Origin: Candidatus Nanoarchaeia archaeon
GTDB lineage: Archaea; Nanobdellota; Nanobdellia; JAQUSD01
DNA: 32,557 bases
Reading direction: 5' to 3'
NCBI GenBank assembly: GCA_028715295.1
Contig: JAQUSD010000007.1
Span: 1 to 32,557 of the forward strand
Below the pieces are notes generated by a model. It searched no databases, was not told the DNA's origin, and saw nothing but the letters and a program-made list of their open reading frames with translations. The position numbers and the translations under genes are program-made. Shown here piece after piece: positions 16,923 to 27,592 of this stretch. The first letter of the stretch is position 1. Each line of letters begins with the position of its first letter.

Positions 16923-17294
16923 GTGATGATAATGAAAACACCTCAGGAAATAGAAGCAAGATATGTAATACCCCTGATAAGAAAAGAACTAGTTCTGGCT
17001 CTTGCAAAAAACAACCTAAATCAAAAGGAAATAGCAGGAATATTAGGATTGACAAACGCAGCAGTATCTCAATATCTTAAGAAAAAAAGAGCTAATACAA
17101 AGATAAATTTAAACAGGGAAACAAAAGATATGATTAAAGAATCAGCTAAAAAAATAGCTGAAAAAAAATCATGTTCAGTAAAGGAGATACACTGCATATG
17201 CAAGGCAATGAGAAAAGACAAAACCTTATGCAGGCTTCACAAATCAATTGAAAAAGTTCCTTGTTCATGCAAAATCTGCGGATGTGGTGAATAA
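16923..17294 (+). CDS. HTH transcriptional regulator with Cys-rich C-terminus, putative Fe-S or redox sensor (start could be 16923 GTG, 16926 ATG or 16932 ATG)
   Basis: HTH NLNQKEIAGILGLTNAAVSQYLKKKRA; C-terminal CSVKEIHCICKAMRKDKTLCRLHKSIEKVPCSCKICGCGE; directly upstream of nifS/iscU. Confidence 0.85.
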   Translation: MMIMKTPQEIEARYVIPLIRKELVLALAKNNLNQKEIAGILGLTNAAVSQYLKKKRANTKINLNRETKDMIKESAKKIAEKKSCSVKEIHCICKAMRKDKTLCRLHKSIEKVPCSCKICGCGE

Positions 17295-18445
17295 TGAAAA
17301 TCTACCTTGACAATGCAGCTTCAACAAAAGTCAGCAAAGAAGTACTTGAAGAAATGAAGCCTTATTTTTCAAAAGAATATGGAAACGCTTCCTCGCTCCA
17401 TGATTTCGGGCAAAGAGCAAAAAAAGCGCTTGAAAAGTCCAGAAGGATAATTGCTGAATCAATTAATGCAGAAACAGAGGACATTGTGTTTACATCTGGT
17501 GGAACTGAATCAAACAATTTTGCATTAAAGGGTGTTGCATTTGCAAACAAAGAAAAAGGAAATCACATAATAACTTCATCAATAGAACATGACTGTGTTA
17601 TAAATTCATGCAGATGGCTTGAAAAACAGGGATTTAAAATCACCTATCTGCCAGTGGATAAAGACGGATTTGTTTCTCCAGAAGATGTTGAAAAAGCAAT
17701 CACAAAGAAAACAATACTTGTTTCAGTTATGCATGCAAACAATGAGGTTGGGACAATAGAGCCGATAAAAGAAATAGGGAGAGTGTGCAGGAAAAATAAT
17801 GTATATTTTCACAGCGATGCATGCCAGACATACACAAAAATTCCTATTGATGTTCAGGAAATGAATATTGATTTACTAACAATCAACAGCCATAAAATAC
17901 ATGGGCCAAAAGGAGTCGGAGCATTATATATTAGAAAAGGTGTCAGAATAGAACCGCTTATGCATGGGGGTGGACATGAGTTTAAAAAAAGAAGCGGAAC
18001 TGAAAACATCCCCGGGATTGTAGGCTTTGCAAAAGCAGTTGAAACAGCAAAGAAATCAGACATCACTCACATGACTAAATTAAGAGATTATCTGATAAAT
18101 GAAATAGAGAAAAGAATATCAGAAATCATACTTAACGGTCCAAAGGGTGAAAAAAGACTCTGCAATAATGTAAACTTTTCATACAGGTTTATTGAAGGAG
18201 AATCAATACTAATGAGATTAAATGAAAAAGGAGTTATGGTTTCAACAGGAAGTGCATGCTCCTCAAATTCGCTTGAAGCTTCACATGTGCTTTTGGCTAT
18301 GGGAAGAAAACATGAAGATGCTCATGGGAGTATAAGGATGAGTTTGAGCAGAGACAATACTTTGGAAGAAATAAAATATGTTGTGAATCAAACTGAAAAA
18401 ACAGTTTCGGACTTAAGAAAGATGAGTCCGTTGTGGAATAGGTGA
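17294..18445 (+). CDS. nifS: Cysteine desulfurase (NifS/IscS family)
   Basis: IYLDNAASTKVSKEV, FTSGGTESNNFALKG, NSHKIHGPKGVGALYIRKG, STGSACSSNSLEASHVLLAMG. Confidence 0.96.
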   Translation: MKIYLDNAASTKVSKEVLEEMKPYFSKEYGNASSLHDFGQRAKKALEKSRRIIAESINAETEDIVFTSGGTESNNFALKGVAFANKEKGNHIITSSIEHDCVINSCRWLEKQGFKITYLPVDKDGFVSPEDVEKAITKKTILVSVMHANNEVGTIEPIKEIGRVCRKNNVYFHSDACQTYTKIPIDVQEMNIDLLTINSHKIHGPKGVGALYIRKGVRIEPLMHGGGHEFKKRSGTENIPGIVGFAKAVETAKKSDITHMTKLRDYLINEIEKRISEIILNGPKGEKRLCNNVNFSYRFIEGESILMRLNEKGVMVSTGSACSSNSLEASHVLLAMGRKHEDAHGSIRMSLSRDNTLEEIKYVVNQTEKTVSDLRKMSPLWNR

Positions 18446-18451
18446 TATGAA

Positions 18452-18841
18452 ATGGAATATTCAAAAAAAGTTATGGAACATTTTACAAAACCAAAGAATA
18501 TGGGTGAGATTAAAAACCCTGACGGTATAGGAACTGTGGGGAATCCTGTGTGTGGAGACTTGATGAAAATAACAATCAAGGTTTCCAAGAATAAAAAAGG
18601 TAAAGAAGTAATCAAAGATGTCAAATTCAAGACATTCGGATGCGCGGCTGCTGTAGCAACTTCTTCAATGGTTACTGAACTTGCAAAAGGCAAAACACTT
18701 AATGAAGCAGAAAAAATAACAAGAAATGATGTTGCTGAATCACTTGAAGGACTTCCTCCACTAAAGATGCACTGTTCTAATCTGGCATCTGATGCATTAA
18801 AGGAAGCAATAAAAGATTACAGGAAAAAGAAGAATAAATAA
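18452..18841 (+). CDS. iscU: Fe-S cluster scaffold protein IscU/NifU N-terminal type
   Basis: Three conserved Cys: GNPVCGDLM, KTFGCAAAVATSSM, KMHCSNLASDAL. Confidence 0.95.
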   Translation: MEYSKKVMEHFTKPKNMGEIKNPDGIGTVGNPVCGDLMKITIKVSKNKKGKEVIKDVKFKTFGCAAAVATSSMVTELAKGKTLNEAEKITRNDVAESLEGLPPLKMHCSNLASDALKEAIKDYRKKKNK

Positions 18842-20358: not shown

Positions 20359-21636
20359 ATGATAGAATACAAAGACTTTCTAAATCTTAAGTACACACCA
20401 AAAAAAGATGATTTAATTGTTTTATTTAAAATAAAGCCGTCAAAGGGATTTTCGATGAAAGATGCTTCATCAAGAGTTGCATCAGAATCAAGCAACGGCA
20501 CATGGGCTGCACTTTTTCCCCCAGAACACATCAAAGAATTAAGCGCGCAATGCTATGATATTAAAGGAAATTATGCAAAAATTGCTTATCCAGGTGACTT
20601 ATTTGAACAAGGAAATATGCCTCAGATTCTTAGTTCAATAGCAGGAAACATATTCGGCATGAAAGCTGTTGACGGATTAAGAATTGAAGATGTAAAATGG
20701 CCTGAAAAAATAATAAAATCATTTATGCATCCTCAGTTCGGAATTGAAGGCGTAAGAAAAATCATGAAAATAAAAAAACGTCCGATTACAGCAACAGTTC
20801 CAAAACCAAAAGTAGGTTATTATGCTGAAGAACATGCAAAAATAGGATATGACTTATGGCTTGGCGGGGTTGATTTATTAAAGGATGATGAAAATCTATC
20901 AAACCAAAAATTCAATCCTTTTGAAAAACGCCTCAGATTGTCTATGAAAATGAGGGAAAAAGCAGAAAAGGAAACCGGAGAAAAAAAAAGCTACCTTGTG
21001 AACATAACTGCTGAAACAGATGAAATGGTAAAAAGAGCGAAAATGGCAAAAGACTATGGAAATGAATATGTTATGATTGATATTCTTACAGCAGGCTGGG
21101 CTTCTGTCCAGACTGTAAGAAAAAAATGCCAAGACTTAAAATTAGCAATACACGCCCACAGGGCTTTCCATGCATCATTTGACAGAAATCCAAATCATGG
21201 TATGGCAATGAAAGTTTTATGCGAAATAGCAAGAATACAGGGTGTTGACCAAATACATATTGGTGGTATGGGAAAACTTGCTGGAGAAAAAGAAGAAATA
21301 AAAGAAAACTGGACTAAGTGTTCATCAAGCTCAAACAATGAAACTAAAAATATGCTTGAACAGAACTGGTTTGGAACAAAACCGATTCTTGGAGTCTGTT
21401 CAGGAGGACTTCATGTTGGCATAGTTGAAAGACTTTTTAACATGCTTGGTACAGATATTGCGATTCAGGTTGGCGGAGGAGTTCTTGGACATCCGGATGG
21501 AGTACTTGCAGGTGCAAAAGCACTAAGACAAAGCATTGATGCGTACATGAGCAAAATCCCCCTTAAAGAATATGCTGAAAAACACAAAGAACTAAAAACT
21601 GCATTAAATAGCTGGGGATATGAAACTCCTATTTAA
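20359..21636 (+). CDS. rbcL: Ribulose-1,5-bisphosphate carboxylase/oxygenase large chain, archaeal form III type
   Basis: ASESSNGTWAALFP, GNIFGMKAVDGLRIEDV, TATVPKPKVGY, GGVDLLKDDENL, IHAHRAFHASFDRNPNHG, MGKLAG, CSGGLHVG, QVGGGVLGHPDG; carbamylated Lys (KDDE) and other catalytic positions retained. Confidence 0.95.
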   Translation: MIEYKDFLNLKYTPKKDDLIVLFKIKPSKGFSMKDASSRVASESSNGTWAALFPPEHIKELSAQCYDIKGNYAKIAYPGDLFEQGNMPQILSSIAGNIFGMKAVDGLRIEDVKWPEKIIKSFMHPQFGIEGVRKIMKIKKRPITATVPKPKVGYYAEEHAKIGYDLWLGGVDLLKDDENLSNQKFNPFEKRLRLSMKMREKAEKETGEKKSYLVNITAETDEMVKRAKMAKDYGNEYVMIDILTAGWASVQTVRKKCQDLKLAIHAHRAFHASFDRNPNHGMAMKVLCEIARIQGVDQIHIGGMGKLAGEKEEIKENWTKCSSSSNNETKNMLEQNWFGTKPILGVCSGGLHVGIVERLFNMLGTDIAIQVGGGVLGHPDGVLAGAKALRQSIDAYMSKIPLKEYAEKHKELKTALNSWGYETPI

Positions 21637-22991: not shown

Positions 22992-23924
22992 ATGGAAACA
23001 GTCATAGTTTCATTTATAGGAAGAAAAGAAACTGCTTTAATGCTAGGAAAAAGTTCAACAAAAAGTGATGTTGAAATACACCATTACATTGACAAAGGCA
23101 AAAATCTGACAATTGTAAACCCTATAGGTTACCCTGATAAGTTATACCCTTTATTTGTTGCTCTAAATATAAGCGATTTAACATTAATTGAAATAAATGA
23201 GCTTAATAAGGAATTAGGAGAAACAATAATTGCCTGTGATTTTCTAAAAAAGAAGGGAATGTTTCTTGTTGATGTTTCAAAACAGCACCTGATGGACAGT
23301 ATAAAAAATATGATTAATACAACTAACTTACAAAACTGGGAGTTTATTGTAATAAATGAAAAAAGTGATTACTCAAAACTAAAAGAAAAATTAATGGCTC
23401 TTGAAACTGAAAAATCTAATTACACAAAAATAACAATTGACCATGTCTTTAATGTAAAGGGAGTTGGTGTAGTTGTCCTTGGTGTTCTCCATGGAGGAGA
23501 AATATCTTCAAGAGAAAACATAACACTTTATCCAGATAAAAAAGAAATACAGATTAAATCTATTCAAGAAAATGATATCGATTTAAGAGATATAAAAGCA
23601 AAGGCGCGTGTAGGTTTAAGCTTAAAGAACTGCACTGCTGAGGAACTTTCAAGAAATTCAGTTCTTTCAGGAAAAAATTTAGAAGTAAAATCAGAATTAA
23701 AAGGGAAATTAAACAAATCTTCTTTTTTTAAGGAAGAACTTAAATCAGGAAACCAGATAACTTTAATTTCAGGGCTTCAGGAAATTTCATGCATATATGA
23801 AGAAGATAATTCTGAAATAAAAATAAAATGCATAAAACCATTTACAATAACTGAAGAAAAAATCATTCTTGTAAGAAAAGATTCCGGCTCAATGAGAATA
23901 ATTGGAGAATTTATTTTAAATTAA
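22992..23924 (+). CDS. SelB/EF-Tu-like protein with degenerate G domain (predicted pseudo-GTPase)
   Basis: TIVNPIGYPDKLYPLFVALNISDLTLIEIN mimics the G3 region; IDHVFNVKGVGVVVLGVLHGGEISSRENITLYP...VQIKSIQ-type domain II; canonical P-loop and NKxD are absent. Confidence 0.7.
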   Translation: METVIVSFIGRKETALMLGKSSTKSDVEIHHYIDKGKNLTIVNPIGYPDKLYPLFVALNISDLTLIEINELNKELGETIIACDFLKKKGMFLVDVSKQHLMDSIKNMINTTNLQNWEFIVINEKSDYSKLKEKLMALETEKSNYTKITIDHVFNVKGVGVVVLGVLHGGEISSRENITLYPDKKEIQIKSIQENDIDLRDIKAKARVGLSLKNCTAEELSRNSVLSGKNLEVKSELKGKLNKSSFFKEELKSGNQITLISGLQEISCIYEEDNSEIKIKCIKPFTITEEKIILVRKDSGSMRIIGEFILN

Positions 23925-23959: not shown

Positions 23960-24250
23960 ATGGTGCAGGTTATTAAAAAAAGTAAAAAGAAAGAAGCTTT
24001 CAAACCGGCAAAGATAGTTAGAGCATGTAAAAGATCCGGATGCCCTGAACCAATAGCAAAAACAATTGCTTCTGAAGTCTCAAAGAAGCTCAAGGGAAGA
24101 AAGATTGTTACATCAACTGCAATAAAACAGATGGTTTTCTCAATGCTGATGAAAGTTGAGAAAGTAAGAAAGAGCTGGATGATGTTTGAACAAAGAAAAA
24201 GGGCAAAGAAAAAACCTATGAAAGCTAAGGCAAAAAAGAAAAAGAGGTGA
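23960..24250 (+). CDS. Stand-alone ATP-cone domain protein with Lys/Arg-rich C-terminal tail
   Basis: VQVIKKSKKKEAFKPAKIVRACKRSGCPEPIAKTIASEVSKKLKGRKIVTSTAIKQMVFSML; tail KRAKKKPMKAKAKKKKR. Confidence 0.8.
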   Translation: MVQVIKKSKKKEAFKPAKIVRACKRSGCPEPIAKTIASEVSKKLKGRKIVTSTAIKQMVFSMLMKVEKVRKSWMMFEQRKRAKKKPMKAKAKKKKR

Positions 24251-24328: not shown

Positions 24329-24610
24329 TTATTTTTTAAGTTCCATTACTTCTTGTTTGGCTTTTTCATTTTCCTGCACCTGTTCTTTATCTCTTTCAAG
24401 CAGAAGTGTCTGAAATTCACCAATATGTGTTTTTTCTTCCTTGGCAATGTCAAGAAGAAGTTTTTTAAGAACAGGATTCTGCGCTGTTGCAGCCATTTGT
24501 TCATAAAGGTTAACTGCATCAAGTTCTGCTATCATGCCCATTCTTATAATTTCATTGTCAATGTTTTCTTTTTTTACTTTCTTCAAATCAATAGGTATCT
24601 GAGATAACAT
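24329..24610 (-). CDS. Short ferritin-like (encapsulated-ferritin/EncFtn-type half-ferritin) protein
   Basis: 93 aa; MGMIAELDAVNLYEQMAATAQNPVLKKLLLDIAKEEKTHIGEFQTLLLERD with E...EExxH iron-ligand pattern. Confidence 0.75.
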   Translation of the reverse strand: MLSQIPIDLKKVKKENIDNEIIRMGMIAELDAVNLYEQMAATAQNPVLKKLLLDIAKEEKTHIGEFQTLLLERDKEQVQENEKAKQEVMELKK

Positions 24611-26911: not shown

Positions 26912-27592
26912 ATGGTCGGCATTATTGCAACAATAGGTCCATCAAGCATGGATTTAAGAATTCTCAAAAAAATGGCTGATGCAGGCATGACAATAGGAAG
27001 AGTAAATATGAAATATGCTTCAGCAGATGAACTCATAAGCATAAAAAACAAACTTGATGAACTTGGCGTTAAGCTGTTAGTGGATATATTGAATATCAGC
27101 CAGTTCAAAATTATCAAAAATATTGATTTTGATTATATTGCATTATCCTTCACTGAGTCAGGAGAACAAATAAATAAGCTCAGAAAACTGATGAAAACTA
27201 AAAAAGCAATTATTATAGCAAAGATTGAGAACAGAAAAGGTGTTAAAAAAATGAAAAGCATAATCAACGCAAGCGACGGACTAATGGTTGCAAGAGGTGA
27301 TTTAGGCAAAAACATCAGGCTTGAAGAACTTCCAATATGTCAGAAAATAATAATAAAAGACTGCAATAAGAAAGGGAAATATGTTATAACTGCTACTGAA
27401 ATGCTTTTATCAATGGTTAATTCAAGAACCCCGACTAAAGCAGAAGCAAGCGATGTTGTAAATGCAGTTATTGACGGCTCAAACGCAGTAATGCTCTCAG
27501 AGGAAACTGCAATAGGTAAATACCCTGTTTATGCAGTAAGAATTATGAGGAGATTAATCAAATCCGCTCAAAAATATTTAAGAAGAAAATAA
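26912..27592 (+). CDS. Minimal pyruvate kinase-like barrel protein lacking B and C domains
   Basis: [114 protein letters not shown]; only 226 aa. Confidence 0.88.

Follow-up and report, generated by a model that had tools for sequence, protein, structure and literature searches.

A divergent archaeal SelB-like protein lacking the GTPase motifs in a 0.78-Mb Nanoarchaeia genome

The aSelBL gene and its domain structure

The DNA analyzed here (the window) is a 32,557-nucleotide stretch of contig JAQUSD010000007.1 from a Candidatus Nanoarchaeia archaeon (assembly GCA_028715295.1). It carries an intact open reading frame of 310 amino acids, beginning with an ATG at 22992 and ending with a stop codon at 23924, that encodes a member of the archaeal SelB-like (aSelBL) family. 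The features discussed below are given in window coordinates.

22992..23924, plus strand: gene of the aSelBL (archaeal SelB-like / EF-Pyl / aEF-X) family, divergent type, 310 aa (ORF, phmmer, AlphaFold2 model, Foldseek, tree)
22992..23411, plus strand: domain I, G-domain-like without G1, G3 and G4 motifs, about residues 1-140 (model elements E2-9 to H125-136, alignments)
23016..23030, plus strand: G1 (P-loop) deletion site, IGRKE versus IGTEKSGRTS in MM1309 (alignments)
23058..23069, plus strand: switch-I-like strand T23-K-S-D26, equivalent to T26-S-S-D29 of MM1309, interdomain and pocket contacts (alignments; contacts from PMC4329189)
23118..23135, plus strand: degenerate G3 / switch II, N43-P-I-G-Y47-P48, Tyr at the catalytic His position (alignment)
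23262..23285, plus strand: G4 (NKxD-equivalent) deletion site (alignments)
23424..23672, plus strand: domain II barrel, about residues 145-227 (NCBIfam, model)
23439..23444, plus strand: aminoacyl-pocket pair D150-H151, equivalent to D191-H192 of M. maripaludis aSelB and D178-H179 of MM1309 (alignments, PMC3037878)
23607..23609, plus strand: aminoacyl-pocket arginine R206, equivalent to R247 of aSelB and R234 of MM1309 (alignments, PMC3037878)
23652..23654, plus strand: R221, equivalent to R249 of MM1309, which bonds switch I (alignment, PMC4329189)
23676..23921, plus strand: domain III barrel, about residues 229-310 (ORF end, model)

Upstream of 22992 the frame stays open for only about five further codons, so no N-terminal P-loop has been missed. 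This, together with the alignment of the N-terminus to those of relatives, led us to reject both a truncated start and a frameshift. The best phmmer match among PDB chains was 3wnb (4.5e-31), a structure of Methanosarcina mazei MM1309 (PMC4329189), followed by the archaeal SelB 4ac9 (3e-12). The Pfam EF-Tu domain 2 gave a weak hit below its cut-off, while the NCBIfam SelB model matched residues 109-235 (2.7e-16, far under the SelB equivalog cut-off) and the EF-1alpha model also matched (2.8e-8), in agreement with an earlier reading of the sequence (the original prediction), which had called domain II clear. An AlphaFold2 model built from a 22-row alignment (pLDDT 90.3, pTM 0.86) consists of an alpha/beta domain I (1-140) and two barrels (145-309). 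Foldseek ranked 3wnb first (1.7e-27, TM 0.82 by query length), then aSelB (M. maripaludis SelB), EF-Sec, EF-Tu and aIF2-gamma. The likeness to MM1309 is far beyond chance, and the window protein is a divergent-clade aSelBL that shares its three-domain fold with SelB, EF-Tu and aIF2-gamma. The proposal of a SelB/EF-Tu-like protein without GTPase motifs was thus borne out by sequence, structure matches and alignments, and AlphaFold2 and Foldseek, which tested for a fold foreign to the translational GTPases, found none. Domain III, which the original prediction did not mention, is present (model strands 231-309); the protein ends with it at residue 310 and has no C-terminal SECIS-recognition domain.

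Atkinson, Hauryliuk and Tenson described aSelBL with its disrupted G domain in 2011 (PMC3037878), and both the loss of GTPase motifs and the idea of tRNA binding without GTP hydrolysis were already published there. According to that paper, the family descends from archaeal SelB, has lost the C-terminal domain and retains the aminoacyl pocket; its other hallmarks are a G1 deletion of 4-5 aa and, in a divergent subclade, another of 10-14 aa at alignment positions 140-149.

Loss of the nucleotide-binding site

The motifs G1, G3 and G4 are all lost in the window protein. At the P-loop, a five-residue gap separates it from the Methanosarcina-type aSelBLs (FIGR-----KETALMLGKSSTKSD versus IIGTEKSGRTSLAANLGKKGTSSD), which corresponds to the 4-5 aa G1 deletion that marks the divergent subclade. 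Of the MM1309 P-loop contacts, K11, G13 and R14 are gone, and T15 and S16 have become K and E. N43 replaces D46 of MM1309 (a Mg ligand and the D of G3), and Y47 occupies the position of the catalytic His. The G4 stretch, T(K/R)SDSTHxHAIDEL in Methanosarcina-type aSelBLs, is 8-9 residues shorter, which we tentatively assume to be the published 10-14 aa indel at positions 140-149 (PMC3037878); G4 is described here by sequence, since the published contact numbers Arg103 and Asp105 do not match the residue types in the homolog used. From G19 to D26, in an alignment without the aSelB N-terminus, the length equals that of the Methanosarcina type.

The original prediction had recognized a G-domain layout with the P-loop lost and NKxD missing, which the G1 deletion and shortened G4 confirm. 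It mistook the segment GKSST for a degenerate P-loop, however; this is the switch-I-like strand (G22-KKGT in MM1309).

An atypical NTPase that still binds nucleotide at a remodelled site would be compatible with the G-like alpha/beta layout kept in the model, and Atkinson et al. left room for one (PMC3037878). With the P-loop, the Mg ligand and the base-specificity motif all deleted or replaced, however, we regard this as very improbable.

Conserved pocket and interdomain residues

Across an alignment of 22 aSelBLs, with the residue mapping checked in a second alignment, D26, D150, F153, L163, R206 and R221 are invariant, and S25 and H151 occur in more than 90% of sequences. MM1309 residues T26, S28, D29, D178, H179, F181, L191, R234 and R249 correspond to T23, S25, D26, D150, H151, F153, L163, R206 and R221 of the window protein, while three further pocket residues, G25, S27 and M32, are replaced by S22, K24 and I29. 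The Asp/His/Arg signature of the pocket (D191, H192 and R247 in aSelB) is present as D150, H151 and R206. The closest homolog, L046, has T in place of H151, and the pocket is therefore not strictly fixed.

Since every GTPase motif has been lost, the gene could be a decaying, pseudogene-like paralog without function. Against this, the reading frame is intact, specific residues outside the GTPase motifs are invariant in 22 homologs only 24-37% identical to the window protein, and similar deletions are common to the methanogen and bathyarchaeal members. The P-loop-less state is therefore old and maintained, and decay seems a highly unlikely explanation.

Relatives, phylogeny and paralog pairs

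A single-sequence scan of the genome contigs with the window protein found no relatives, and an alignment-based scan of public genomes with conserved blocks recovered 30 aSelBL loci from Methanosarcina and ANME-2, Methanomicrobiales, Methanomassiliicoccus, a bathyarchaeon and several DPANN genomes. In the tree, the window protein pairs inside aSelBL with L046 (isolate LFW-252_1, itself without G motifs; support 99/95). The two group with sequences of methanogens, Bathyarchaeota and DPANN that likewise lack a P-loop (93/94, not starred), and the Methanosarcina type falls elsewhere; long branches make the deeper placement uncertain. The outgroup of EF1A and aIF2-gamma sequences (L002, L077, L078) joined together (99/92), apart from SelB and aSelBL.

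A survey of the class with the 22-row profile (E <= 1e-28) found aSelBL in 31 of 150 genomes, belonging to four families. Two copies were present in 19 of the 23 positive genomes of family f13 and in three of the six of family f8. Two-paralog genomes include G007, G037 and G053 (L004-L006, L035, L037, L038) and G012, G023, G033, G041 and G049 (L007-L011, L031-L034, L036, L044, L045). In the pairs whose sequences were read, a P-loop (GPYKSGKT or GLNNSGKT, with TKAD or TKTD) is present in just one of the two copies. In f8 the D-H pair and R221 are lost from the P-loop copies and kept in the P-loop-less copy. In f13, five P-loop copies were read, of which three keep D-H (D-N or D-G in the other two), and the P-loop-less copy is without H, R206 and R221. 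This pairing is not mentioned in the available text of the family papers (PMC3037878, PMC4329189) or in the open-licence literature searched, and the two papers report nothing on the host's lineage. What is new here, the lineage and the two-paralog genomes with and without a P-loop, is modest.

Genomic context

The host genome is 777 kb long and about 94% complete, and no other genome compared belongs to its order. Named relatives from its class are catalogued as Nanoarchaeota/Parvarchaeota, which makes the host a probable DPANN archaeon. The original prediction had suggested looking for genuine SelB and tRNA-Sec; in this genome there was no SelB above the family cut-off, no tRNA-Sec above gathering and no match to SelD, while PylRS and SepRS gave only sub-cut-off matches. 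At about 94% completeness these absences are not absolute. The sub-gathering tRNA-Sec matches proved to be tRNA-Leu, -Ser, -Thr and -Cys. The SelB-model matches, all under the cut-off, were the window protein, EF1A, a second EF1A-like protein, aIF2-gamma, and aEF2-like and aIF5B-like frames, the last two judged by their length and surroundings. A Sec-specific SelB was rejected because the GTPase motifs, C-terminal domain, SelD and tRNA-Sec are all missing, as was a Pyl-specific EF-Pyl function, with PylRS under the cut-off. As the Sec and Pyl systems are absent, neither delivery is the job of this aSelBL, unless the genes lie in the missing 6%. A class I CysRS gene (504.9 bits, well above cut-off) directly adjoins tRNA-Cys(gca), and Cys-tRNA is available to the host by the ordinary route.

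The genome also encodes a pair of EF1A-like proteins that each carry normal GTPase motifs (G000:C30, L002, 436 aa; G000:C11, L077, 424 aa), the C11 copy adjoining an aEF2-like frame. They bear on the idea that aSelBL is a nucleotide-free elongation factor, bringing a specific charged tRNA to the ribosomal A site and releasing it without GTP hydrolysis. The domain II sequence of the window protein is well kept, and the domain II residues proposed to contact 16S rRNA are conserved in aSelBL (PMC3037878). In factors of the EF-Tu type, however, GTP hydrolysis drives tRNA release by way of the catalytic His, a Tyr in the window protein, and either EF1A-like protein could carry Cys-tRNA; we consider such a factor rather unlikely.

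Relatives do not share the immediate gene order around aSelBL, and no conserved neighbor explains its role. About 4.5 kb upstream lie, in a row, an HTH regulator, an IscS-type cysteine desulfurase and a NifU_N scaffold (16923-18841). Homologs of the desulfurase and regulator are also found about 4-5 kb from aSelBL in the genome of L046, the nearest relative (G040), and are missing near it in most other genomes; this proximity is a weak lead on role. Directly downstream on the same strand is a stand-alone 96-aa ATP-cone domain protein (23960-24250). The window further encodes a type III RuBisCO large subunit (20359-21636; NCBIfam rubisco_III, over cut-off), in a genome of 0.78 Mb; a 93-aa ferritin-like protein related to the encapsulin cargo EncB (24329-24610, minus strand); and a 226-aa pyruvate-kinase-like protein (26912-27592) whose match lies chiefly in the latter half of the barrel domain and which could be a fragment or split gene.

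A role in tRNA maturation or quality control, in which the protein would bind deacylated, precursor or misacylated tRNA and no charged elongator, was left possible by Atkinson et al., and in some archaea ribonuclease or aminoacyl-tRNA synthetase genes are neighbors (PMC3037878). The flanking genes scanned here include no RNA-processing neighbor, however, and the invariant aminoacyl-pocket residues imply recognition of a charged end. This makes such a role quite improbable.

Proposed role

The aSelBLs have been known since 2011, and one biochemical study of them was found. That study, of the conservative aSelBL MM1309, determined structures with nucleotides in which the switch regions serve domain contacts and not the nucleotide (Yanagisawa et al. 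2015, PMC4329189). MM1309 binds GTP with a Kd of 0.43 uM, binds Cys-tRNA-Cys and lengthens its half-life from 80 to 300 min, and the authors named it aEF-X and suggested that it acts as a guardian or an alternative factor.

The reading we prefer, at a probability of about 0.6, is that the window protein binds charged tRNA, most likely Cys-tRNA-Cys, independently of nucleotide and serves to protect or carry it. The original prediction of tRNA binding without GTP hydrolysis, already published for aSelBL, is retained as the best available explanation, although charged-tRNA binding is something we infer, because the sole assayed relative found, MM1309, still binds GTP. The protein is an ancient archaeal SelB paralog that has lost its nucleotide site and SECIS-recognition domain; it retains the aminoacyl pocket of SelB and, we propose, the closed arrangement of the three domains. 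Contacts of T23, S25 and D26 with H151, R206 and R221 may take the place of the nucleotide in holding this closed, GTP-form-like shape, which would bind charged tRNA, probably Cys-tRNA-Cys, with no need of a GTP switch. Bound in this way, the tRNA could have its aminoacyl bond and thiol shielded from hydrolysis or oxidation, and could perhaps be handed on to EF1A or the ribosome.

It is possible, if doubtful, that the divergent aSelBLs in general are nucleotide-independent guardians or carriers of aminoacyl-tRNA, locked in a GTP-like shape by protein contacts, and that some related archaea have split the duties of ancestral SelB between a P-loop paralog that lost the pocket and a pocket paralog without the P-loop, the two possibly acting as a pair.

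If the proposed role is correct, a relative of the translational GTPases handles charged tRNA without GTP, and so offers a natural way to see for which part of the EF-Tu mechanism the switch is required. A very reduced aSelBL in a 0.78-Mb genome mainly shows which residues cannot be lost.

Comparison with known systems

The host's own EF1A and aIF2-gamma (L002, L077, L078) share the overall fold and domain II with the window protein, but have the full GTPase motifs that it lacks. Archaeal SelB (M. maripaludis; PDB 4ac9, 4acb) shares the fold of domains I-III and the D-H / R pocket; true SelB, however, has all the GTPase motifs and the C-terminal domain, whereas the host of the window protein has no detected Sec machinery. 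MM1309 of M. mazei (PDB 2ELF, 3wnb, 3wnc, 3wnd) agrees in the three-domain fold, pocket residues, T-x-S-D switch-I-like strand, Tyr at the catalytic His position and lack of a SECIS domain, at 26% identity over the structural alignment. MM1309 keeps a working nucleotide site (R14, G13, D46 and a G4 stretch) and binds GTP, whereas deletions of 5 and 8-9 residues affect this site in the window protein. The divergent aSelBLs of Methanomicrobiales, Methanomassiliicoccus and Bathyarchaeota (L048, L049, L056, L058, L070, L072) belong to another lineage, are 28-30% identical to the window protein and differ at the G3 position, with E where it has N, but share the same G1 deletion, shortened G4 and pocket.
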